A stretch of DNA of 64,000 nucleotides from Pedosphaera sp. (lineage in GTDB: Bacteria > Verrucomicrobiota > Verrucomicrobiia > Limisphaerales > AAA164-E04): positions 25,442 through 89,441 of the forward strand of contig NZFL01000026.1 of NCBI GenBank assembly GCA_002690655.1. The letters are read 5' to 3'. Each line of letters begins with the position of its first letter. Position 1 is the first letter of the stretch. The position numbers and the translations under genes are program-made. Positions 2,712 to 15,188 of the stretch are shown in pieces. The notes beneath the pieces are model-generated. The model did not search any database, was not told where the DNA came from, and saw nothing but the letters and a program-made list of their open reading frames with translations.

Positions 2712-5700
2712 TCAATCCGGTGATATGCTTTGCTCTGCGATTACACGGTAAAACCGAGTATCTTGATAAGGGGATGCATCAAATACCACATCTGAATCCC
2801 CTGTTCCGGTTAATGTTCTCAGGTCATTCCAATGTCCCCTGTTTAACGCATCGGTATGCTGCACCGTGTAGCGGACACCCACTTGAGTGGCAATTTCCAA
2901 AACAATTCCCCCCTCAACCAGAGACAAGCCTTGGATGAACCCCGAGTTTTGCTTGGGATGGGTAACCTCGCTTAATTGCCCTGGAGAAGGACTATTGAAA
3001 CCCCAGTTCAAAGAGACGTTACCGTATGAATCCTGATCAAGTCTATGAAGACTGAACACACCGCTTTGTAGAGGAGTTACCCAAGAAACATCAGAAGCGT
3101 ATTCAATCCGATCCTCATCAACCCAACCCAGAGACTCTGCATTATGTTCTAGCCCCATTGAGTTTGGAAGCATCACCAATTCCTGAAGCCTGACAAGGTC
3201 CCCGCCATTGTCCAGTCTGCCTTTGAATGGACCATACACGGAAACCATCAAGGGGAGGCCCCAACTTTGCTGAAGGGCTCCAGTGATCATCGGTTCCTTG
3301 GAAGGATCATAGTTCACTACCAACAATACCTGACCAGGCTCAAGTTCGACGTCAGATTTAAAATGATAACTCACACCTCCAGCCAATCGCCAGCCACGCA
3401 AATTACGAACTGTGTCAGAGAGTATCACGCTTTCATTGGAACGATTGTAAACTTCAATGAACTCAACACCATCCAGTATGGAAGGTAATAGAGTGGCGCC
3501 TGTTTTTGTGTCGATGAGTAATTCAGAGATTACCAAGGGGCCCATCGAGGGAATCACATTCTGTCCGCCTGCTGATAATTGAAACGTTTCAAGGGATTCA
3601 GTGAGGGACTTACCAAAAGTTGCAGACTGCAAACGCGCAAACTCATCCACATGACTCAAATCGAATTTCCCGAATGATTCGTTCCAATGCGTAGGCAGAA
3701 CCGGTGCTGACAAACGTCTTCCAGTCGGAATGCCTTGGGAATCTATCTCTGAGATGTATATGCGTTCAGTCAGTGAAATTTGCCAATCTCTCGAACGAAT
3801 AATATCGGAGGGCAACCAAAACGCCTCATGCAAAACATGAAATTGACCTGGTCCCACCACCGTGCCGGCTGGCAATCGAAAGGCATCAAGCGAGCTTCGC
3901 TCGGATCCTATAGCCCATCCCGAAATATCAACAGGATTCGCCCCGAAATTGAGCACCTCAATCGCTCGGCCTGAAGGAGTCCTTGGGGTCAAAAGCAACT
4001 CATTGATTTGAAGGCCTTCAATTTGAGTGTGGTTTGGAATTCCCTTTGATGTTTCAACCACATCAAAACTTACCAAACGATCCTCCCCATCTGGCAATCT
4101 TCCGTTGGAACCTCCTTGCACAAACGATTCCGCCACAAGAATCTCATCAATCACATTCAGGGAATCTGAGTAAATCCGTAATGTTTCTCCCTTCGAAGAA
4201 AGTCGAAAATTCAAGTGATCGCTGCCTCGCTGGGGTTCCCCATCAGCTCTAAAAACAACCCAGGACTTAGGGCCAACAAAACTCAAGTTTGCAATGGCAT
4301 GCTTGGTCTTCCCTGCAAGAGAAGGATCATCTGTCAAATAGAGAGCACTGATATCAACTGGCTGATTGCCTCTTTGGTATAGTTCCAACCAGTCGTCTCC
4401 CTCCCCTCCTCCACTCCATTCATTGATTCGCAAATCATCGGTCGAACCAAGGAGCGCTGCGTTGCCATTGACTTTTCCCGGAGTCCCTTCAGCAAGTAAT
4501 TGCCATTGATTTCCTTTCCTGCCGATTGTTTGATCAATCACCTGAATACCAAATCTCAATTGATCAAGCTGTCTGCCCTCGGCAGTCAGAAGTTCAATAC
4601 TGGCCCCGGAAGGGGGTAGTGAACGATCAACGACAATTCCCGGAAATTCACCACGACGAATCAGGTCATCGCCATCAAACCATACAATGAAATGATCATG
4701 ACCTTCCAAATAAATCCCGTCGGGTAAAACCCATTCATCGCCCCCATCCAACCTCAACCTCATCCCGCTCAAATCGATGAGACCATCCGTCTTGTTGAAC
4801 AACTCTATCCAATCCGGTGTCCCAGCCATGCCTGGATAAATGACTGTTTGATTCCGTGCCATGATTTCGTTGATCACGATTGACGAACTTTCCTGAATGA
4901 CATTTTTTTGCCCGGGAGTTGCCTGCTCAGAAAACTGTTGAAATCCCCCGATCCCATTGGGCAGGCGTCCCAAGGATGTGCCTTCGATCTGTAAACCAAA
5001 GGATATTTTATCCAGAAGATTCCCTTGCGAATCTAATAATCCAAGCTCCGCACCCGCCGATGGGATTTTGAATCTCAGTGATCCACGCCGAGGTATGTTG
5101 ACCGGATAAAAAGCTCGATATCCACCTGCTTCAAGAAAACCTGGGGAGGATAGACCCACCGCATAACCATCAAGTGCAAAATGCAAACCACTTAAATCAA
5201 CAGGCAATGCATCATTGAGATTCAACACTTCCAACCAATCTTCCTCACCAGCTAAAGGGTTTGCCATGAACTCATTGATACGCAGGGAATCGACCAACGA
5301 TGCCGTTGCGGTTGCCCGGTTTTTTTGAGCAGGGCTTGGTTCCCCTAAAAACCATTCGCCGTGATCGTCTCGATTAAGTGAATAATCAAACAACTGATGA
5401 CCAAAGGTCACGGCATCTACTTGATTCCCCTGCGGGTCCAGTAGAACAAGAGAATCGCCTTCCCGATCCAATCCAAAGGAAAACCCCTCTGGATCAGAGC
5501 CACTTACCGTTTGCCATAGCACCAAACGCTCTGCTGGTTCAATGAAACTGCCCTTGGAGAAAACAAAATCCGATCGGCCAGATTCATCTCGAAGACGATA
5601 TCCGGCCAGATTCAATCTGCGATCACTACGATTCTCCAGTTCAATCCAATCGGGTAATAAACCACTCGGCTGCTTGATCGTTCGGTTGGCTGCAACGATT

Positions 5701-8700
5701 TCACTGATCACCAAGTCGCCTTGAGATTGGTTTTCAACAAACCTCCCGGGACTTCCGCCAGCAGATAAACTTCGCCACCAATCCGCAGGGTTTGGATTAC
5801 TTCCACCTGCTATCTTGAATTCCAGACTATCCCCCCCACCATCGGCTGATATCGGCCAAGCACCTTCATCGCCATATCGCACGCCTGTGACATATTTTCC
5901 CTGCTCGTCTTCCAGAATGAGTGATTCGCCTCCGTTTGAAAGACTACCCGCAAAATACCCCCAAATACTCACCGAAGGATATCTCGACTGAAAAGCGGCT
6001 GGATTTTTGTCCGATGCCAAAAGGATGACGCCACCTGATTCCAGATAGGATTCAGGAGCAAACAAGTAGGAAATACCTCGAAAAGAGTAGCGCGAGAGAT
6101 TGACCGAAACGGGACTGAAATTGGTCAATTCAACAAACTCAAAAGCGTCGCCTCCCGGGGGATGATACATTATTTCAGTCAATTTCAGTTCCGGAGTCAA
6201 TCCGCCTGGATAGAAATCCCCGGAACTCATGGCACTCCACCTGCCGTTGATCAATGCTCTTGCCTTTATTTGGGTCACCGACTTAATCGGGATAGGGCCT
6301 TCATACAAAACCGCGGAATCGGCAACCCTTCCTGGCTGTTCAACTCCTATTTCAAGCAAAAGATCAAAGAGAAAATCAGAGCTGGATAGTTGTGCATTGA
6401 GTCCGTGAATAGCCAGGGTGTTGCCTCCTTCTTTCAAGAGTTGCATGTGATCGCTCACGTTGAAGGACTGGAAAATAACAGCTGAGGCATCAGGATGATC
6501 GCCGTTCGCTGAAGTGTTCCATTGCAGACGGGATGGGGCATTGGCAGCAGCAATAGGTTTCCCGTTGAGGTAGGCAGCAAATCCATCGTCATACTTCACC
6601 CGGAGATTCATGAGATTCCGGCCATCTAGATCATTGGATCGAACATTGAATGGAATGACAATGTATACGGTGGTGTTTTTATCATTCATGGATGCGTTCA
6701 CATCAATGCCAATATGAGCATCATAGGTCTGGTTTTCATCATAGCCGACGCCTCCACGTCCGCGCACCCAGTCAGCAGTATCAATATCGGGATCATCGGC
6801 GCGCCATTTTGTTCCCAGACTGCCATCTGTCGGAACGTGGGCAAACTTAATCGTGCGATTGGAAATCAGCTCTGTTCGAGTCGAGGCCGTGATGCTTGGC
6901 AGAAGCGGATCCTTACCATCAAGTGTGTAGTAAATATCGCCCTGCTCACTGTCCAACCTCAAAGCATTGGCACGCATACTTCCTGCCGGTTCCGAGAAGC
7001 GCGGCACATTGGACTCAAGAAAAAGGCCTTCCGCTGCCAGATGTGAAAGCACATTCTGGCGCCGTTGAGGTATCCATGACCTGGCAATGGAATTGTTGAT
7101 GTTGCGTATACTGGACATATCCCCTCTTAACTCCTGAAAACGGCTCATGATGTTTGCATCAGTCAGCGCGCCGTTATTGTAAAAGTGTTGATATACTCGA
7201 TCAGCAAATCGCGTTCGGAACTCAGTATTTTTCGACAGTGATTGATAAAAACGAGCGATATCCTGATTCACTGCCAATTCACTCATCAACGTATTATGCC
7301 GGACTGAGCCTCCTTGATTGAAAAAAGACCACTCTGCATCCCATGCATAAAAACGCCATTGGGCACCGTCGACTCTTTCCCGTGCAGCGCGCCAGTTATT
7401 ATGCGGCCAATCACGCGTTCCGGCGTAAATGTTGAGGATTAAATAGTCGATGAAATTATCGATGTTGAGCAATTGCCTTGCCTGCTCATAATTGGCTGCC
7501 ACGGAGAGGTCTCGACGCAAGGTCTGCTTGAGTTGATTCCACATGACCAAATCACCCGCTCTTACTTCCCCAAATTGAGCAATGATATCGTAATCACCGT
7601 TGCCGCCCTGCCATGTGTCCAGGAAGTCTTCATCAATCCTTTCCGTTGGATTGTAGTATCCTTTGTATACACCATTCACGAAAAGGTTCACCAATGTTCC
7701 CTGGCTGGAAACTTGCCCCATGTCTGCAGATAATCGACGTACAAGTTCGTCCACTATGAAAGGGTCGGAATGATCATTCATTCCTGCGCGCAAAACAATC
7801 TGTTTGTATTCATCCTCCGGAGAGCGAGGTATGAACGGATACCTGAGTGCGGACTCACCGTAATCCCCCCTGAAATAAAGGCGATACGAATATTTACTGA
7901 AAGGCAACCCCCCGTTGGGGTTATACCTCCCTCTTACATAATCCCCTCCTTGAATACGAAGCCCACAATCAATTTGAAATCCGGTTGAACCATCAGGAAG
8001 AAAATATTCCACCGATACGGGGCGTTCCCAGGATCGACCCCGCTTGGAAGTGTTTCGGGGACTTGTTTCCATGATACCTTGAGCACCCCAAAGGTGATTA
8101 TTATCCGTCACTAAAGATAAAACAGGTAAAGACCGTCTGGCAGCGCTCAACCGAAACAAATAGGAATGTGTGACCGTTTCTGAAGGTAAGTAACCTTCTT
8201 TGAAAACTGCAGCTCTCACGATGGCGGAACGACTCAAGCTGATGGGTTGATCGTATTCAAATCCATTGTTCAGCGTCGGCTCTGACTTGTCCAATGTGTA
8301 ACGAATCGAAGTTCCCTCTATGGCTGAGGAGATGACCAAGTTAAAGGGTTTGTCATAGAAGCCTCGCCTGGCACTGAAGGAAGCAGGTGGTAAAATTTCA
8401 GATAGCGTTTCATTGCTGTTTGCGCTTCCGGGTGTAGGCGATGAAAAATACCCGATCAGTCCGTCCGAACGCCGACCATACGAATGATCGTTGCGTTGTT
8501 CAGGGAAACGATTACCTAAATCACTGACCAGACGTCGCGGCAATTCAGGGCTGTACAGGCCAATGAATTCACCTGCACTACTTAACTTGAAATTAGTGTG
8601 CGGTGAATGACCTGAGCGATGGTTCAATCGTCCTTTTGCAGATGCATAGACAAGCTTGTATTCATTTGGGGCAAGGATAAATCCGTCAAACATCCATTTC

Positions 8701-10049
8701 CCGGTATCATTGATATCATCAGAAAGAGCCCACCCCGAGAGATCGACATCGAAGTCGTTGGTGTTGTGGAGTTCAATCCAATCAACACGCGCTCTATCAT
8801 CATCCACTATGCCACTCTGGTTCGCAGCTAATATTTCCGAAATGATGACACCACCATAATTGGTTTGAGGATTAATGGTATATTCCCATGCATCTGTTTG
8901 CAGTGGGTTAGGCTCGCTTGCAACGTCTTCAATCCCATGATCAAGACGCCATTCCAGTTGGGGTGCAGCCTCACTCGTTTCCGAAAAAGAAAAGATATAA
9001 GGTCCTGCGCCTGCTCCTGAAAGCGAAAGCGCTGGCTCACCGTCCACCAATAAATCCGAAGCATCCAAACCTCTTACTGTTTCAGAGAATAGAATTTCGA
9101 CTTCAGTAAACTCGCTCAATTGTTGCCCAGGCAGGGGGAATATACGGATTACAGAAGGCGCATTTTGATCCATCAATTGATAGGAGCGTACTTCTGAGGG
9201 GTTTTGCCAATCAAACTCATTAGGAGTAGCAGCAAGGTCTACGATACCCGCATCCTGCTGCCAACGCAGGGTAAGCTCACCCGGTTCAGTGTTCGTGAAG
9301 GTAAAGAGGTAAGCATCTCCACCCCCAGTCAAACGTGAAGCTGGTTTTCCATTCAATGTGAGATCTGAGGCCTCGACACCTACCACTGGCTCTGAAAAAG
9401 TCACACGAACTTGACTAAAAACTCCAACCAACCCTGGTGCTGGCTCGACAGCAATGACGGAGGGAGCCTGTGTATCCAGCCCAATAAAATTTAATTCCGG
9501 GTGCAGCACAAAATCGCTGCTCGATAAATTGACATTGAAACCCTGAACAGCGATAACATTGTCGCCGTCACGCAAATGTGCAATCCCCCTATTTAAGGAA
9601 AAAACTTCAAAACTGCCAGACTCATGACCCTGAGAGGCAAATCCATTCACAGCGAGTGCGTCAGGTGCATTCACCCGCAGCAACTCATTACCGTTCAACC
9701 AGACAACAAATCCATCGTCATAATCGACATTTAATTCCAACCCCTCGACTAACGAAACAGAATCCACAGAGAAATGTCGGCGAAGGAAATAAGTGGAATA
9801 AGTATTGCGCATGCCTTTGATTTCAGTACCGCCTGCTCCATCGCCATATCGAAAAGGCGCGCTTCCTTTGAACCATTCACTGTCGTTAAAATCAAACTCA
9901 ACCCACTTCAAAGTTTCGGCAGATGGAGCCTGACTACCGGGCCATGCATGCCATTGACTTCCCTTGGCAATCAAGGTTCCAGCATGGGCACGGAATGAGA
10001 GCGCGGCAACTAGTCCAAGAAATGCTCCTGTTAAGATTAGATTTTTCAC
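2712..10049 (-). CDS. Giant secreted CotH-kinase/lamin-tail-domain surface protein
   Basis: 2445 residues with a clear signal peptide (MKNLILTGAFLGLVAALSF, cut near AHA). In order: a galactose-binding-like domain (about 25-195), two SbsA-type Ig-like domains (about 195-390, each with FSEPV/FSETV), lamin-tail domain 1 (about 400-545), a chitobiase C-terminal-like segment (RYTLDKSEP, about 550-635) and a CotH-kinase-like domain (about 640-1000; TRDWPHNNW and FYAWDAEWSFF look like its active-site strands). A second YTLDGKDP segment, a second galactose-binding-like domain (about 1075-1240) and seven more lamin-tail domains follow, each opening with an I-(S/N/T)-E motif and D-W-(I/L)-E-L. The C-terminus (2370-2445) is a YTVQ...FYRV module. 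CotH proteins phosphorylate coat proteins in spore formers; here the role is unknown, perhaps attachment or surface-protein modification. It converges on the symporter fusion. Confidence 0.85.
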   Translation of the reverse strand: MKNLILTGAFLGLVAALSFRAHAGTLIAKGSQWHAWPGSQAPSAETLKWVEFDFNDSEWFKGSAPFRYGDGAGGTEIKGMRNTYSTYFLRRHFSVDSVSLVEGLELNVDYDDGFVVWLNGNELLRVNAPDALAVNGFASQGHESGSFEVFSLNRGIAHLRDGDNVIAVQGFNVNLSSSDFVLHPELNFIGLDTQAPSVIAVEPAPGLVGVFSQVRVTFSEPVVGVEASDLTLNGKPASRLTGGGDAYLFTFTNTEPGELTLRWQQDAGIVDLAATPNEFDWQNPSEVRSYQLMDQNAPSVIRIFPLPGQQLSEFTEVEILFSETVRGLDASDLLVDGEPALSLSGAGAGPYIFSFSETSEAAPQLEWRLDHGIEDVASEPNPLQTDAWEYTINPQTNYGGVIISEILAANQSGIVDDDRARVDWIELHNTNDFDVDLSGWALSDDINDTGKWMFDGFILAPNEYKLVYASAKGRLNHRSGHSPHTNFKLSSAGEFIGLYSPELPRRLVSDLGNRFPEQRNDHSYGRRSDGLIGYFSSPTPGSANSNETLSEILPPASFSARRGFYDKPFNLVISSAIEGTSIRYTLDKSEPTLNNGFEYDQPISLSRSAIVRAAVFKEGYLPSETVTHSYLFRLSAARRSLPVLSLVTDNNHLWGAQGIMETSPRNTSKRGRSWERPVSVEYFLPDGSTGFQIDCGLRIQGGDYVRGRYNPNGGLPFSKYSYRLYFRGDYGESALRYPFIPRSPEDEYKQIVLRAGMNDHSDPFIVDELVRRLSADMGQVSSQGTLVNLFVNGVYKGYYNPTERIDEDFLDTWQGGNGDYDIIAQFGEVRAGDLVMWNQLKQTLRRDLSVAANYEQARQLLNIDNFIDYLILNIYAGTRDWPHNNWRAARERVDGAQWRFYAWDAEWSFFNQGGSVRHNTLMSELAVNQDIARFYQSLSKNTEFRTRFADRVYQHFYNNGALTDANIMSRFQELRGDMSSIRNINNSIARSWIPQRRQNVLSHLAAEGLFLESNVPRFSEPAGSMRANALRLDSEQGDIYYTLDGKDPLLPSITASTRTELISNRTIKFAHVPTDGSLGTKWRADDPDIDTADWVRGRGGVGYDENQTYDAHIGIDVNASMNDKNTTVYIVIPFNVRSNDLDGRNLMNLRVKYDDGFAAYLNGKPIAAANAPSRLQWNTSANGDHPDASAVIFQSFNVSDHMQLLKEGGNTLAIHGLNAQLSSSDFLFDLLLEIGVEQPGRVADSAVLYEGPIPIKSVTQIKARALINGRWSAMSSGDFYPGGLTPELKLTEIMYHPPGGDAFEFVELTNFSPVSVNLSRYSFRGISYLFAPESYLESGGVILLASDKNPAAFQSRYPSVSIWGYFAGSLSNGGESLILEDEQGKYVTGVRYGDEGAWPISADGGGDSLEFKIAGGSNPNPADWWRSLSAGGSPGRFVENQSQGDLVISEIVAANRTIKQPSGLLPDWIELENRSDRRLNLAGYRLRDESGRSDFVFSKGSFIEPAERLVLWQTVSGSDPEGFSFGLDREGDSLVLLDPQGNQVDAVTFGHQLFDYSLNRDDHGEWFLGEPSPAQKNRATATASLVDSLRINEFMANPLAGEEDWLEVLNLNDALPVDLSGLHFALDGYAVGLSSPGFLEAGGYRAFYPVNIPRRGSLRFKIPSAGAELGLLDSQGNLLDKISFGLQIEGTSLGRLPNGIGGFQQFSEQATPGQKNVIQESSSIVINEIMARNQTVIYPGMAGTPDWIELFNKTDGLIDLSGMRLRLDGGDEWVLPDGIYLEGHDHFIVWFDGDDLIRRGEFPGIVVDRSLPPSGASIELLTAEGRQLDQLRFGIQVIDQTIGRKGNQWQLLAEGTPGKVNGNAALLGSTDDLRINEWSGGGEGDDWLELYQRGNQPVDISALYLTDDPSLAGKTKHAIANLSFVGPKSWVVFRADGEPQRGSDHLNFRLSSKGETLRIYSDSLNVIDEILVAESFVQGGSNGRLPDGEDRLVSFDVVETSKGIPNHTQIEGLQINELLLTPRTPSGRAIEVLNFGANPVDISGWAIGSERSSLDAFRLPAGTVVGPGQFHVLHEAFWLPSDIIRSRDWQISLTERIYISEIDSQGIPTGRRLSAPVLPTHWNESFGKFDLSHVDEFARLQSATFGKSLTESLETFQLSAGGQNVIPSMGPLVISELLIDTKTGATLLPSILDGVEFIEVYNRSNESVILSDTVRNLRGWRLAGGVSYHFKSDVELEPGQVLLVVNYDPSKEPMITGALQQSWGLPLMVSVYGPFKGRLDNGGDLVRLQELVMLPNSMGLEHNAESLGWVDEDRIEYASDVSWVTPLQSGVFSLHRLDQDSYGNVSLNWGFNSPSPGQLSEVTHPKQNSGFIQGLSLVEGGIVLEIATQVGVRYTVQHTDALNRGHWNDLRTLTGTGDSDVVFDASPYQDTRFYRVIAEQSISPD

Positions 10050-10419: not shown

Positions 10420-12429
10420 ATGAAACCAACTCTATTTTCTGAACTAGATCTTTCTCCTGAACTCGAAAAAGCCATCAAAAAGCTTGGATTCGAACAAGCT
10501 TCACCCATCCAGGCTGCTGCCATCCCATGTCTATTGAATGGCAAGGACGTTGTTGGTCAATCTCAAACAGGCTCCGGCAAGACGGCGGCCTTTGGTATCC
10601 CTGCGATTGAACGCACTGAAGCAAAGCTCAAAGCCGTGCAAGTCCTCGTTCTGTGCCCGACACGTGAACTTGCGGTTCAGGTATCAGAGGAAATGCATAA
10701 ATTGGCTTATTACAAGCGTGGAATCATCTGCTTGCCGATTTACGGAGGGCAATCTTATGAGCGCCAGTATGCAGGTTTGCGTCAGGGTGCACAGATTGTG
10801 ATCGGAACTCCCGGCAGAGTCATGGACCATATGAGACGTGGTTCTCTCAAACTGGACCAATTACACACCATTATTCTGGACGAAGCCGATGTCATGCTTG
10901 ACATGGGTTTTCGAGAAGATATTGAAATGGTCTTGAGCGACCTTCCACCCGAGCGACAAACCGTCTTCTTCTCGGCTACCATGCCACGCCCCATTCGCAA
11001 CTTGATTGAACGATTTGCCAATGAGCCTGAAAGTGTCCGGATTGAACAAGAGTCCATGACCGTTCCCACAGTGGAACAATCCGTCTTTGAAGTTCAGCGT
11101 CGTTTCAAAGTGGAACTGCTGACACGTTTGATTGATATACATGACCTGAAGTTAGGAATCATTTTCTGCAACACCAAAGCCATGGTGGACGACTTGGTCG
11201 AACACCTGGTGGCTCAGGGATATCAGGCCGACCGACTTCATGGAGACATGAGTCAGCAGCAGCGAGATCGCGTGATGAACCGTTTTCGAAAATCCGGCCT
11301 GGAATTTCTCGTGGCCACGGATGTGGCTGCTCGTGGCATAGATGTGAATAACGTGGAAGTCGTTTTCAACTATGACATACCTTACGATGCAGAAGACTAT
11401 GTTCACCGTATAGGCCGGACGGGGCGAGCCGGCAAAAGTGGCATTGCCATTTCCTTCGTTTCCGGGCGCGAGGTATTCAAAATACGAAATATTGAACGAT
11501 TCACGCGAACGTCGATTCGTCGGGGAAGGATTCCAACACTGCAGGATGTGGATGAAGCTAGAAACAGCCACGTGCTGAACCGAGTAAGAGAAACCCTGCA
11601 GGGCAACGAATTCCGAACTCAGGACCACCTCATTGAACGACTTCTTGAGGAGGGGTTTACATCGACAGATGTAGCTGCATCGTTACTTTATTTGTTACAG
11701 CCAAATGAATCCAATGTTGGAAATGAACACCGCCGGGACGAGCTTGGTGAGCGATATACCACGCGTGAACAAGATGGCCGAGGCAGAGAGCGTCGAGGGC
11801 GATCTGATCGTGGAGGTTCAGAGGATTCCCGGGGAAGATCTCGGGAACGCTTCAAGAACGATCGATTCGAAAACAAGGAGCCTAGAAGACGCACAGGTGA
11901 AGCCAGACCATTCAAGCAGGGCAGGCAAAGTGCACCCAACCCGGATCGGCCAACAAATGAGCCTGAAAAAAATCTCAGGCCAAAAAAGGACCTGAGAGAG
12001 AATGTCAGCTCACAGGAAAAAACTTCGCGAACCATTACAAAGCCAAAACCAGTGCCAGAGTCTTCAAAGGTTGAAGCTCCCGAGACAGTAAAAAAAATTG
12101 ACACCAAGGAGAAAAAAACAACTGAACTCAAGAAACATAAAAAAACATCAAAGTTCAGCTTACCAGATGAGAATAAATCATCCGATGGCTCTCAGGATTC
12201 CAGAAATCAATTGCGCTTAAACATTGGCAAAGATGCCGGCGTCACAGCTGATCAGATACGCGATGCCATTCTTGGAGAAACCGGAGTGCCAGAAAGTATC
12301 ATTGGGAAAGTGGAACTACAGGCAAAGCACGCCACCATTGACATTGCTGCTGAAAAAGCAAACGCAGTGATGAGTAAAATGAAACGGGCTAACATTGCAG
12401 GGAAACGAGTGAAAGCTAAGTTGGTATAA
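10420..12429 (+). CDS. deaD: DEAD-box ATP-dependent RNA helicase, DeaD/CsdA type
   Basis: 669 residues. The motifs appear in order: Q-motif region near the N-terminus, SQTGSGKT (about 46-54), PTRELA, TPGR, DEAD (154-157), SAT (about 186), ARGID and HRIGRTGR (about 329). A long charged, probably disordered linker rich in R, E, D and K spans about 430-590. Residues about 595-669 look like a DbpA/CsdA RNA-binding domain. These features fit a cold-shock or ribosome-assembly helicase that unwinds structured RNA in the cytoplasm. It begins a same-strand run with the zinc-ribbon SDR (37-base gap) and a SUI1-type factor, so the run may have a translation-related theme. A 370-base upstream region could carry a regulatory leader. 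Confidence 0.93.
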   Translation: MKPTLFSELDLSPELEKAIKKLGFEQASPIQAAAIPCLLNGKDVVGQSQTGSGKTAAFGIPAIERTEAKLKAVQVLVLCPTRELAVQVSEEMHKLAYYKRGIICLPIYGGQSYERQYAGLRQGAQIVIGTPGRVMDHMRRGSLKLDQLHTIILDEADVMLDMGFREDIEMVLSDLPPERQTVFFSATMPRPIRNLIERFANEPESVRIEQESMTVPTVEQSVFEVQRRFKVELLTRLIDIHDLKLGIIFCNTKAMVDDLVEHLVAQGYQADRLHGDMSQQQRDRVMNRFRKSGLEFLVATDVAARGIDVNNVEVVFNYDIPYDAEDYVHRIGRTGRAGKSGIAISFVSGREVFKIRNIERFTRTSIRRGRIPTLQDVDEARNSHVLNRVRETLQGNEFRTQDHLIERLLEEGFTSTDVAASLLYLLQPNESNVGNEHRRDELGERYTTREQDGRGRERRGRSDRGGSEDSRGRSRERFKNDRFENKEPRRRTGEARPFKQGRQSAPNPDRPTNEPEKNLRPKKDLRENVSSQEKTSRTITKPKPVPESSKVEAPETVKKIDTKEKKTTELKKHKKTSKFSLPDENKSSDGSQDSRNQLRLNIGKDAGVTADQIRDAILGETGVPESIIGKVELQAKHATIDIAAEKANAVMSKMKRANIAGKRVKAKLV

Positions 12430-12466: not shown

Positions 12467-14056
12467 GTGAAACCCCTCATGGATGCAGGCAATCACGAAA
12501 TCCACCAAGAAGAATCAATCTCTTCAATGCCATCAGGTGCTGTGTTGAAGGATCAAATGCAAAAGGCTGTTCTCTTACTGGAAAGCGTCGCCTCGGATCG
12601 TTCTATGTTGATGGCACTTTCGGAGGATTACCGCGTACGCCTCCACAAAGCAGCTGGGGAGGTTTTTTGCCCTGATGTACGGCAGCGTCGAAAACTCAGC
12701 AAGGCAATTATCAAGAAACGCAGGGAGGAGAAATTATCTAAGGATCAAAACCAGTTGAACAAAAGCGGCATTCGTTCCCTCCGCAAAAAGACGGTTTATA
12801 CAACCCCGGATTTTTATCCACCAAAAGAGATAAAACTACCGAAAAAACATGGTTCCTCCGACTCACGTCATGTCGCCCATCCTCAGAATTGCTATATATG
12901 TAAGCAGGATTACTCAAAACTGCATGCTTTCTACGATCAATTATGCCCGACATGTGCCGAACTCAATTTCCGCAAACGGACCGAATCCGCAAATCTGAAA
13001 GATCGCGTAGCACTCCTGACGGGGGGACGGGTCAAAATCGGCTACCAGGCAGGCATTAAACTCCTCAGAGCAGGCTCTGCATTGATCGTCACAACGAGAT
13101 TCCCCATGGATGCCGCGCTCCGTTACTCAAAGGAGAAAGACTTTGAACACTGGAAACATCGCCTGCATGTCTTTGGACTCGATCTGCGCCATACCCCAAG
13201 CGTGGAGGGGTTTTGTCGATATTTGGAACAGCATTTTGAGCGGTTGGATTTCATCGTCAATAATGCGTGTCAAACCATCCGCAGGCCGCCTGAATTTTAT
13301 CGACACATGCTCGAAAAGGAATCCACGTTCACCAATCAAATTCCGGAAAACCTTCGCGGCCTGCTGAAAGAATATCAGCAACTTCGTGAAGTTGGAATTC
13401 CTCCTTCCAAGACAGGTTTATTTAAGAACCCCGATAAAAACCTTGTCGACCTCACCGACGTAGCAAGGTTATCCCAGCAAGCACTGACAGGAGAAGATTT
13501 TGATGTAGGCGAACACTTGTTTCCAAGTGGCCAGCTCGACCAAGACCTTCAGCAAATAGACCTCAGAAGCCGCAATTCATGGCGCTTGCTCATGGACGAA
13601 GTTTCTTCGGTAGAGCTCATGGAGGTTCAATTGATTAATGCCATCGCGCCGTATGTGATCAATGCTCGACTCAAGTCAATGCTGGTGAGGGGCAAAGAGC
13701 GTGATCGACACATCATCAATGTCTCGGCCGTAGAAGGACAGTTCTATCGTAGATTCAAGACGACAAGACATCCTCACACAAATATGGCCAAGGCGGCCCT
13801 GAACATGATGACTCGTACTTCGGCAGCGGACTACCATTCGGACGGCATTCACATGAATAGTGTGGATACTGGCTGGGTAACAGATGAAGATCCCGCTGAA
13901 ATAGCAGAAAGAAAGACCGCAGAACATCAATTTCACCCTCCCTTGGATGTCGTGGATGGAGCCGCGCGCATCGTAGATCCTATCATGAACGGGTTTAATT
14001 CAGGAGATCATGTCTGGGGAAAGTTTTTGAAAAACTACAAGGAAACAAATTGGTAA
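12467..14056 (+). CDS. SDR-family protein with an N-terminal CxxC-CxxC zinc ribbon
   Basis: 529 residues from GTG at 12467; ATG at 12479 and 12527 are alternative starts. Residues 1-135 are charged and unrecognised. Cys142/145 and Cys160/163 form a CxxC...CxxC zinc ribbon. A Rossmann SDR domain starts near 178, with TGGRVKIGYQ (185-194) and NNAC (265-268), the latter resembling the usual NNAG. About 100 extra residues sit between NNAC and the helix containing Asn391. Ser420 (NVSAVEG) and Lys442 fit the catalytic positions, but the Tyr of YxxxK is Thr438 (TNMAK). Classical SDR chemistry is therefore doubtful. It may be a specialised or non-catalytic nucleotide-binding SDR. It lies in an apparent operon between deaD and the SUI1 gene (13-base gap). 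Its function is unknown. Confidence 0.75.
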   Translation: MKPLMDAGNHEIHQEESISSMPSGAVLKDQMQKAVLLLESVASDRSMLMALSEDYRVRLHKAAGEVFCPDVRQRRKLSKAIIKKRREEKLSKDQNQLNKSGIRSLRKKTVYTTPDFYPPKEIKLPKKHGSSDSRHVAHPQNCYICKQDYSKLHAFYDQLCPTCAELNFRKRTESANLKDRVALLTGGRVKIGYQAGIKLLRAGSALIVTTRFPMDAALRYSKEKDFEHWKHRLHVFGLDLRHTPSVEGFCRYLEQHFERLDFIVNNACQTIRRPPEFYRHMLEKESTFTNQIPENLRGLLKEYQQLREVGIPPSKTGLFKNPDKNLVDLTDVARLSQQALTGEDFDVGEHLFPSGQLDQDLQQIDLRSRNSWRLLMDEVSSVELMEVQLINAIAPYVINARLKSMLVRGKERDRHIINVSAVEGQFYRRFKTTRHPHTNMAKAALNMMTRTSAADYHSDGIHMNSVDTGWVTDEDPAEIAERKTAEHQFHPPLDVVDGAARIVDPIMNGFNSGDHVWGKFLKNYKETNW

Positions 14057-14069
14057 CACATAAAGAACC

Positions 14070-14462
14070 ATGAGCAAAAAAAAACGCATCGAGACCGTGG
14101 GGGGCGAACCTCTGACTCAGAATCCTTTCGGGGGTTTGGAAAACCTGGAACTGCCGGACGCGACTCCGAAGCATATCCCACCTGCGACGGAAAGCAAAAG
14201 GTCCAAGCCGAACAAGAACCGGGGCCGGGTTGACATCATTCGTCAAAAAGCACACCGGGGTGGAAAGACGGTTACCGTTATTACCAATTTTAAAGGCATT
14301 GGAACCCCTGAAAAAGAAGCACTGGCCAAAAAAATGCAGAAAACATGCGGCAGCGGAGGCACCGTCAAGGCTGGCAATATCGAAATTCAGGGAGAGCAAC
14401 GAGACAAAATTGCGGACATACTGAGGGAAGCCGGATTCAGACCGGTCTTCGCGGGAGGCTGA
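14070..14462 (+). CDS. SUI1/eIF1-like (YciH) translation factor
   Basis: 130 residues. The C-terminal half carries the SUI1 fold signature: GGKTVTVITNFKGI, then a GSGGTVK loop and IEIQGEQRDKI. The first about 60 residues are charged and variable. Bacterial YciH proteins resemble eIF1 and can influence start-codon discrimination or stress-time translation, but they are not essential initiation factors. It sits 13 bases after the zinc-ribbon SDR, so co-transcription with deaD is likely. The msrB gene converges from the other side. Family assignment is firm; the exact role is not. Confidence 0.88.
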   Translation: MSKKKRIETVGGEPLTQNPFGGLENLELPDATPKHIPPATESKRSKPNKNRGRVDIIRQKAHRGGKTVTVITNFKGIGTPEKEALAKKMQKTCGSGGTVKAGNIEIQGEQRDKIADILREAGFRPVFAGG

Positions 14463-14497: not shown

Positions 14498-15076
14498 TCA
14501 TTTTTGGGCGGGCTTCGCCTTTTTTGGGGTTTTATTTGTTTCCGTTTTTTTCCTGAATTTGAGCGAAGCGGAGTTGATGCAGTAACGCAGGCCCGTGGGT
14601 CTTGGGCCATCATTGAAAACATGACCTAGATGACCCTCGCAGCGATTGCAAACAACCTCGGTTCGTGTACTGAAAAACCCACGGTCTATTTTTTCACCAA
14701 CATGCTCCTTCTTGACGGGCTGCCAGTAGCTTGGCCAGCCTGTACCTGATTTGTATTTGGTATCGGAACTGAATAGAGGCAAGTCACAGGCAACGCAGTG
14801 ATATATCCCCTTTGCTTTATTGTTCCAGTAAAGACCTGTGAACGCTCTTTCAGTGCCTTGCCTTCGAACGACTCGATATTGTTCAGGCGTGAGGATTTTC
14901 CTCCATTCGGCGTCAGGTTTGACAATCTTTTTTAGAGATTCCACCTGAGCAGTCTTCTTCTTTTCATCCTCGGCCACGGCCCAAAAAGAGGACTGGATAA
15001 AACACACGCCAGCAAGGATGAGAGTAAGGCAGGTAGTCAGGAGAGAGCACTGAATGATAGATTTTCTTTTTTTCAT
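14498..15076 (-). CDS. msrB: Peptide-methionine (R)-S-oxide reductase, exported
   Basis: 192 residues from ATG at 15076, chosen because [17 protein letters not shown] then begins a normal signal peptide; a longer frame to 15124 is less likely. MsrB features are complete: CVAC and CNRC zinc-binding pairs, the [11 protein letters not shown] block, [11 protein letters not shown] and the catalytic Cys in RYCINSASL. It reduces methionine-R-sulfoxide in proteins, here presumably in the periplasm. A lysine-rich tail follows the domain. A candidate promoter with TTGACA lies about 115 bases upstream. It diverges from the BamD-like gene and converges with the SUI1 gene. Confidence 0.93.
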
Positions 15077-15188
15077 AAATGCCAATTCTAGTTCGCATTG
15101 ATAATGAAGCCAGCAACGCGGCAATACAAATTTAATGTTACCTTTCTGGGCTTCTTATAAATCTCCGTCATGAACCCCCTCAGATCAA

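Follow-up and report, generated by a model that had tools for sequence, protein, structure and literature searches.

Among described SDRs, CapE and isopiperitenone reductase offer precedents for the protein analysed here. CapE, a UDP-GlcNAc 4,6-dehydratase/5-epimerase, carries the motif M134xxxK138 and is active without the catalytic Tyr (PMC3699295). The K126A change left CapE without activity and the D125A and M134A changes lowered conversion 4-6-fold; in the accessible part of that report, Lys126 is tied to functional substrate binding and not expressly to acid/base catalysis (PMC3699295). Isopiperitenone reductase, as far as the accessible text describes it, has Glu at the Tyr site and performs ene-reduction (PMC4988501).

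We analysed a stretch of 64,000 nucleotides of a Pedosphaera sp. contig (the window), in which one gene encodes a protein of 529 aa. Judged by its sequences, this protein belongs to a strongly conserved bacterial family, present in several phyla, that has the nucleotide-binding fold of SDRs without their catalytic Tyr and Ser. Its members must therefore either rely on some other catalytic residue or serve another purpose. With classical SDRs (tropinone reductase, FabG, gluconate 5-dehydrogenase) the family has in common the fold at residues 173-521, the tetrad Asn, the Lys of YxxxK and the NNA after beta-4. In contrast to them, it has Thr for Tyr, Ala for Ser and Lys for the middle Gly, and it adds an insertion of ~100 residues, an enlarged loop, an N-terminal hairpin and a Cys4 module. 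Because three defining features of classical SDRs were tested and found absent (the catalytic Tyr, the catalytic Ser and TGxxxGxG), we did not file the protein as a classical SDR; with the Lys of YxxxK and the tetrad Asn present, its sequence makes it a Ser-/Tyr-less variant within the SDR superfamily.

The likeness to CapE consists of an SDR without the catalytic Tyr, a substitution fixed in the family and a Lys, essential in CapE, shortly before the site; the parallel is one of motif spacing only, the Lys lying 8 residues before the site in CapE and 7 in the family (PMC3699295, accessible part). CapE differs in being an extended SDR with a substrate domain and a latch, in using UDP-sugars and in carrying Met, not Thr, and the accessible part of its description mentions no Cys4 module (PMC3699295). 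The Met for Tyr of CapE-type enzymes was found in no member of our set, Thr standing there in 137/137. Isopiperitenone reductase is alike in that the Tyr of an SDR site is replaced and the reaction type switched; it differs in having Glu rather than Thr and in being a plant enzyme, for which the accessible text mentions neither a Cys4 module nor such an insertion (PMC4988501). A literature search by family and motif, covering freely accessible sources, found no description of the family among the titles and abstracts listed; one paper that it returned (PMC6003104) is, in its accessible part, about an ordinary SDR. Models specific for the family were not seen in Pfam, in NCBIfam (best 25 of 138 rows) or in PADLOC.

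The protein and its predicted structure

The ORF starts with GTG; its parts and its two neighbours are collected in Table 1. Translation may start downstream of the GTG, since 64/80 relatives from a contig scan (described below) align only from residue 17-32; in-frame ATGs lie at residues 5, 21 and 31. The protein matches the Pfam families adh_short (PF00106, E 2.2e-13) and adh_short_C2 (PF13561, E 1.4e-11), each above the cut-off and with the best stretches at residues 181-275 and 386-487, and NCBIfam gave no match at the cut-off among the best 25 of 138 rows. The closest PDB sequences are ordinary SDRs (E 5e-7 with phmmer, 1.6e-9 with a profile of 58 rows). Residues 173-521 of the structure model match tropinone reductases I and II with NADP (Z 21.5, rmsd 3.1, 227-229 residues). 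By profiles, fold match and hhalign, the protein is a member of the SDR superfamily by homology.

The first-pass annotation had noticed a Thr in the position of the Tyr and about 100 inserted residues after NNAC, and we found both. The YxxxK site reads T438-N-M-A-K442, and Thr438 aligns to the catalytic Tyr column in both MAFFT and hhalign comparisons with 18 ordinary SDRs of the same genome. NNAC occupies residues 265-268 and is followed by 122 residues (269-390) before Asn391, the tetrad Asn, a span whose group means are 115-126 across the family; in an SDR such as FabG the usual span from NNA to the tetrad Asn is ~22, and judged against this figure about 100 residues are extra. The annotation understated what is unusual about the protein: the catalytic Ser is lost too (Ala421), the cofactor motif reads TGGRVKIG, with K190 where TGxxxGxG has its middle Gly, and the loop before Thr438 is enlarged and invariant.

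Table 1. Features of the SDR-like gene and its neighbours in the window
Feature	Position	Strand	Basis
Whole ORF, member of the Ser-/Tyr-less SDR-related family	12467..14056	+	Pfam; homologues
Helical hairpin at the N-terminus, residues 23-110; stretch 66-110 net-positive	12533..12796	+	AlphaFold2 model, charge
Cys4 module, residues 134-174, predicted treble clef	12866..12988	+	Model; conservation
Rossmann/SDR domain, first half, residues 181-275: TGGRVKIG, K190, R211, NNAC268	13007..13291	+	PF00106; conservation; structural match 173-521
Insertion following beta-4, residues ~286-380, on average acidic, modelled with low confidence	13322..13606	+	Model; charge
Helix and strand, residues 381-421: Asn391, Ser420, Ala421 in the catalytic Ser column	13607..13729	+	Conservation; alignment register
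Enlarged loop at the active site with the beginning of the helix that follows, residues 422-443: Lys431, His435, His437, Thr438, Lys442	13730..13795	+	Conservation; spacing
SDR domain, C-terminal part, residues 444-529: invariant D467, W470; conserved FLK.Y..W tail	13796..14053	+	Conservation
DEAD-box RNA helicase (deaD), 37 bases upstream; context, not a conserved partner	10420..12429	+	Pfam/NCBIfam; tblastn
SUI1/YciH-like translation factor, 13 bases downstream; neighbour only in few Verrucomicrobia	14070..14462	+	Pfam/NCBIfam; tblastn

The model of the whole protein is mediocre (mean pLDDT 65.7) and falls below pLDDT 50 over residues 306-376 of the insertion and in the loop 423-435. Among the 50 structure matches listed for this model, in which the insertion has low confidence, none is titled as a sugar-nucleotide enzyme. 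The N-terminal piece alone (residues 23-181, AlphaFold2) was modelled with a mean pLDDT of 82.4: helices at 24-43, 53-67 and 71-100 give a helical hairpin, followed by a beta-hairpin knuckle with C142 and C145 and then by a helix that starts at C160 and C163. The CxxC...CxxC at residues 142-163 had been called a zinc ribbon; the four Cys (142, 145, 160 and 163) are there, and for the module as a whole the model predicts a treble clef rather than a zinc ribbon. Knuckle and Cys pair at the helix start are what the modelled module has in common with treble-clef fingers (RING, C1, MYND and nuclear-receptor DNA-binding domains). C1, MYND, RING and nuclear-receptor domains are also frequent in the Foldseek list for the N-terminal model, in which the best match has E 0.81 and is not significant; the fold search gave none at E 0.001 or better. 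Against Pfam, the Cys4 region gave a weak hint of a double zinc ribbon below the cut-off (E 0.099), and the N-terminal region sub-threshold hints only. The helix at residues 66-110 has a mean net charge of +8.6 in the main group of the family and +4.4 in the low-identity group; together with the predicted treble clef, it would be weakly consistent with nucleic-acid binding.

Conservation and distribution of the family

A scan of genome contigs used six seed peptides, one of which (QNCYICKQ) holds two Cys and none of which holds TNMAK; it gave 210 relatives, and the best 80 of the 210 were kept. The final set counts 137 distinct members, L179 having been removed from an initial 138 because it duplicates L058. 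It is made up of the window protein, the 80 from the contig scan and 56 found by whole-protein searches without seed peptides (52 in genome samples, 4 on plasmids). Alignment A1 holds 57/80 of the contig-scan loci and the window, and alignment A4 76/80 and the window. One relative, L005, is 93% identical to the window protein, and the other contig-scan relatives 56-65%.

Both TNMAK and the Cys4 are kept in 82/82 when the 80 contig-scan relatives, the window and the genome's own copy are taken together. Over the full set, Thr438, Lys442, Lys431, His435, Pro436, Asn439, Arg188, Arg211, Asp467 and Trp470 are each present in 137/137, as are C142, C145, C160 and C163, although the Cys count is partly ascertained in the contig-scan subset by the one Cys-bearing seed; all 56 members found without Cys-bearing seeds keep the Cys4. 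The check suggested for the first-pass annotation, conservation of the Thr and of the Cys4 in homologues, thus came out in its favour, and the idea of a lone exception among homologues that keep Tyr is ruled out by Thr in 137/137. Asn391 is present in 136/137, Lys190 in 136/137 (Gly in L187 only) and Ala421, in the catalytic Ser column, in 136/137 (Ser in L187 only); Ser420 is found in 133/137 (Thr in 4) and His437 in 132/137 (Asn in 5). The spacing from S420 to T438 is identical in 137/137, and 53 positions are invariant over all members. Y427 was considered as a substitute Tyr and rejected: it is present in 97/98 of the main group but in 100/137 overall, hence not family-wide.

Residues 153/157 read H/D in 109/137 and D/H in 25/137, with H/P (L085), H/H (L137) and H/R once each; H/D is found in 98/98 of the main group and 10/11 of the mid group, and D/H in 25/28 of the low-identity group. 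This swap of order between groups suggests that the two side chains may touch. Two members show part of the insertion as unmatched or missing (query residues 295-323 unmatched in L129, 301-332 in L186), so the insertion appears partly dispensable. Another, L187 (genome G941 of the acidobacterial sample, 41% identity), has Gly190 and Ser421 like an ordinary SDR and keeps Thr438, Lys431, His435 and the Cys4; it may be a divergent form, or an early or intermediate one with Tyr alone lost.

We compared the protein with the SDRs of its own genome, which holds 20 PF13561 matches, the 529-aa protein included. Tyr in the Thr438 column and Ser in the Ala421 column are found in 18/19 of the others, and since two pairs among these 18 are identical, 16 are distinct. 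The remaining match, L189, has Met and Tyr in these two columns and resembles an enoyl reductase of the FabI type, in which the Tyr comes three positions before this one. Aligned to the 18 SDRs by hhalign (probability 99.0), the family profile shows the same pairing, Ala421 with the Ser and Thr438 with the Tyr. Among the 20 matches, the 529-aa protein is alone in having Lys for the middle Gly, and its spacing from S420 to T438 is 4 residues longer than in 13/18 of the genome's SDRs and 1-3 longer than in the other 5. The next-best places in the source genome for the 529-aa protein reach E 3e-6, leaving a wide score gap. The two identical SDR pairs of this genome (G000) lie on different contigs (C6/C7 and C4/C23), perhaps because stretches of the assembly are duplicated; the listed contamination of the genome is 5.92%.

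Genome samples were searched at E 1e-40 for the window's phylum and at E 1e-30 for four others, the seed genome being included in the counts. Members were found in 5/288 sampled genomes of the window's phylum, in 2/299 of the phylum of a Rhodanobacter genome, in 26/296 of that of an actinobacterial MAG, in 10/199 of that of an acidobacterial MAG and in 12/149 of that of a spirochaete MAG, a sample that also contains another clade, at 45-47% identity. Within the five phyla sampled, occurrence of the family is patchy. We built a tree by a quick method from 116 members (the set without its last 21); it places nearly all low-identity members in one clade, mostly from the actinobacterial sample, and its main clade mixes phyla. 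With 39 unlabelled rows not counted, phylum labels change 10 times on this tree, against a minimum possible of 5 and 24.6 in shuffles, which is compatible with some transfer between phyla and does not prove it. Six bins titled Klebsiella pneumoniae or Akkermansia muciniphila (L018, L016, L024, L032, L041 and L052) nest among Verrucomicrobia of other names, and these record titles may be wrong. A phage or defence link was considered and dropped: phage records gave no match at E 1e-10, viral contigs gave none to the seed peptides, which reach close relatives only, and PADLOC defence models gave none to the 529-aa protein at E 0.01.

Gene neighbourhood

In the window, deaD, the SDR-like gene and SUI1 follow each other on one strand with gaps of 37 and 13 bases. 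Terminator-like sites number 11 against 5.3 expected, none of them on the + strand between the three genes, and one such pattern follows SUI1 (14506-14520); promoter-like sites are at chance level. From this placement, the first-pass annotation had derived an RNA- or translation-linked function, to be checked by the presence of deaD and SUI1 beside homologues. By tblastn over 137 loci, SUI1 is the next gene on the 3' side, in the same orientation and 5-78 bases away, in the window, L005, L006, L048 and L024. These are 5/132 of the loci whose 3' flank reaches 1 kb or more, and all five, the window included, are Verrucomicrobia; in L188, SUI1 is 745 bases away. For deaD, 130 loci have 1 kb or more of 5' flank, and only the window and L005 carry it as the immediate 5' neighbour; L006, L022, L024, L056 and L168 show a DEAD-box match at some other place in their flanks, on either side or strand. 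Seen from the other gene, 76 genomes of the class hold 25 SUI1 loci, of which 2 have the SDR-like gene nearby (the window's and L148, the same place as L188); no deaD match was found within 1.5 kb flanks of the 25, the window's flank ending inside the SDR-like gene.

Neither of two neighbour clusterings nor the Pfam scans of flanking ORFs showed a neighbour shared across the clades of the family. For these scans, 103 downstream candidates were reduced to 82 ORFs and 125 upstream candidates to 81; the candidates dropped were mostly the shortest overlapping ORFs and included two very long upstream ORFs (L033, L052), the deaD ORFs of the window and L005 and the SUI1 ORF of the window were also left out, and the SUI1 ORF of L048 was added. 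SUI1 was the commonest downstream family, with 3/82, and no upstream family exceeded 2/81. Cluster 1 of the neighbour clustering was discarded, being a shadow ORF on the opposite strand of the SDR-like gene itself. Shared neighbours are otherwise confined to small sets of related loci, and for the family as a whole the argument from placement therefore does not stand; within some Verrucomicrobia, SUI1 turns up beside the gene in separate branches, and there the link could be real.

Some of these small sets can be described. An ORF shared by six Streptomyces-like loci (L123, L124, L125, L130, L131 and L132) lies 180-465 bp upstream in the same orientation and looks by eye like a wax ester synthase/DGAT, a family that Pfam found in 2/81 upstream ORFs; five of the six loci have a gene that by eye is glgC-like 1.6-7 kb upstream. 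Five Verrucomicrobia loci (L010, L013, L015, L034 and L047) have a divergent ORF of 127 aa, RidA-like by eye, 137-172 bp upstream. In the window, an ORF on the - strand at 14498-15124, by eye methionine sulfoxide reductase B-like, converges on SUI1, and a related ORF lies near the SDR-like gene in L005, L006 and L168. Before deaD, on the opposite strand, lies an ORF of 2445 aa (2712-10049, -) with repeated stretches that are lamin-tail-like or CotH-like by eye.

Candidate functions

The reading that we prefer, tentatively and at somewhat less than even chances, is a soluble enzyme of SDR descent that binds NADP(H), with its acid/base residue in the invariant loop K431...H435-P-H437-T438. Cofactor binding is likely, given that Lys442 and Asn391 are kept, and Lys442 with R188 and R211 would bind NADP(H); K190 in place of Gly could disturb this binding. 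As a stand-in for Tyr, Thr would be an implausible acid. Proton transfer would instead fall to a residue of the enlarged loop just before Thr438, and K431 and H435, by their conservation and the added length of the loop, are the natural candidates; His437, present in most members only, cannot be a universal acid because it is Asn in 5 of them. Ser420 or Thr438 would perhaps help to hold the substrate, the insertion would confer specificity, and the predicted treble clef and the hairpin would serve folding, oligomerisation or partner binding. Since Ser and Tyr are missing, chemistry other than plain carbonyl reduction is plausible, such as ene-reduction, dehydration or epimerisation. To liken the loop Lys to that of CapE as an acid/base residue would be our own reading. 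A bolder proposal is doubtful: a new SDR catalytic type in which acid/base chemistry falls to the Lys/His loop, perhaps with help from the His/Asp pair in the fused treble clef.

The double loss of Ser and Tyr is at the same time what a pseudoenzyme would show, and such a protein is a serious possibility: not itself catalytic, it would sense NADP(H) or another ligand and act on a partner, protein or nucleic acid, by way of its hairpin and putative zinc module. Ser420 was ruled out as the catalytic Ser, the register placing Ala421 in that column, and this shifts the odds towards a pseudoenzyme; the catalytic Tyr is gone in 137/137 and the Ser in 136/137, an extra N-terminal domain carries a net-positive helix and the Cys4 module, and metabolic neighbours are not recurrent. 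The enzyme reading suffers further from the pLDDT below 50 in the loop 423-435, which leaves the placement of K431 and the histidines putative. What argues against a pseudoenzyme is that Asn391, Lys442, K431 and H435 are invariant or nearly so across phyla, that the neighbour analyses found no conserved partner gene, and that the invariant positions number 53, which we take, on the alignments, to be more than the fold alone needs. From this conservation we infer catalysis, but the loss of two catalytic residues makes a pseudoenzyme almost equally probable. A factor with an SDR fold recruited to work with deaD and SUI1 in an RNA- or translation-linked role is improbable: the tight packing of the three genes on one strand, the terminator-like pattern after SUI1, SUI1 as the next gene in four other Verrucomicrobia and the net-positive helix with the predicted treble clef would suit it, but SUI1 is not the next gene in 127/132 usable loci, deaD is directly upstream only in the window and its close relative, and no translation gene was seen to recur beside members elsewhere. 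Least probable is an ordinary carbonyl reductase or dehydrogenase in which Lys442, water and Thr438 or Ser420 transfer the proton. Its fold and closest PDB sequences are indeed those of common SDR reductases and dehydrogenases, but Thr438 and Ala421 are fixed, unlike tolerated changes, the Gly motif is changed and the loop enlarged, and mutation of Ser or Tyr costs classical SDRs most of their activity.

Whichever of these readings applies, 53 invariant positions over several phyla with no recurrent genomic partner speak for a selected function, and the family makes a clear test of an SDR that works, or has been reused, without Ser and Tyr. Two of the plasmid members are annotated as "SDR family NAD(P)-dependent oxidoreductase", a label that hides the loss of two catalytic residues.
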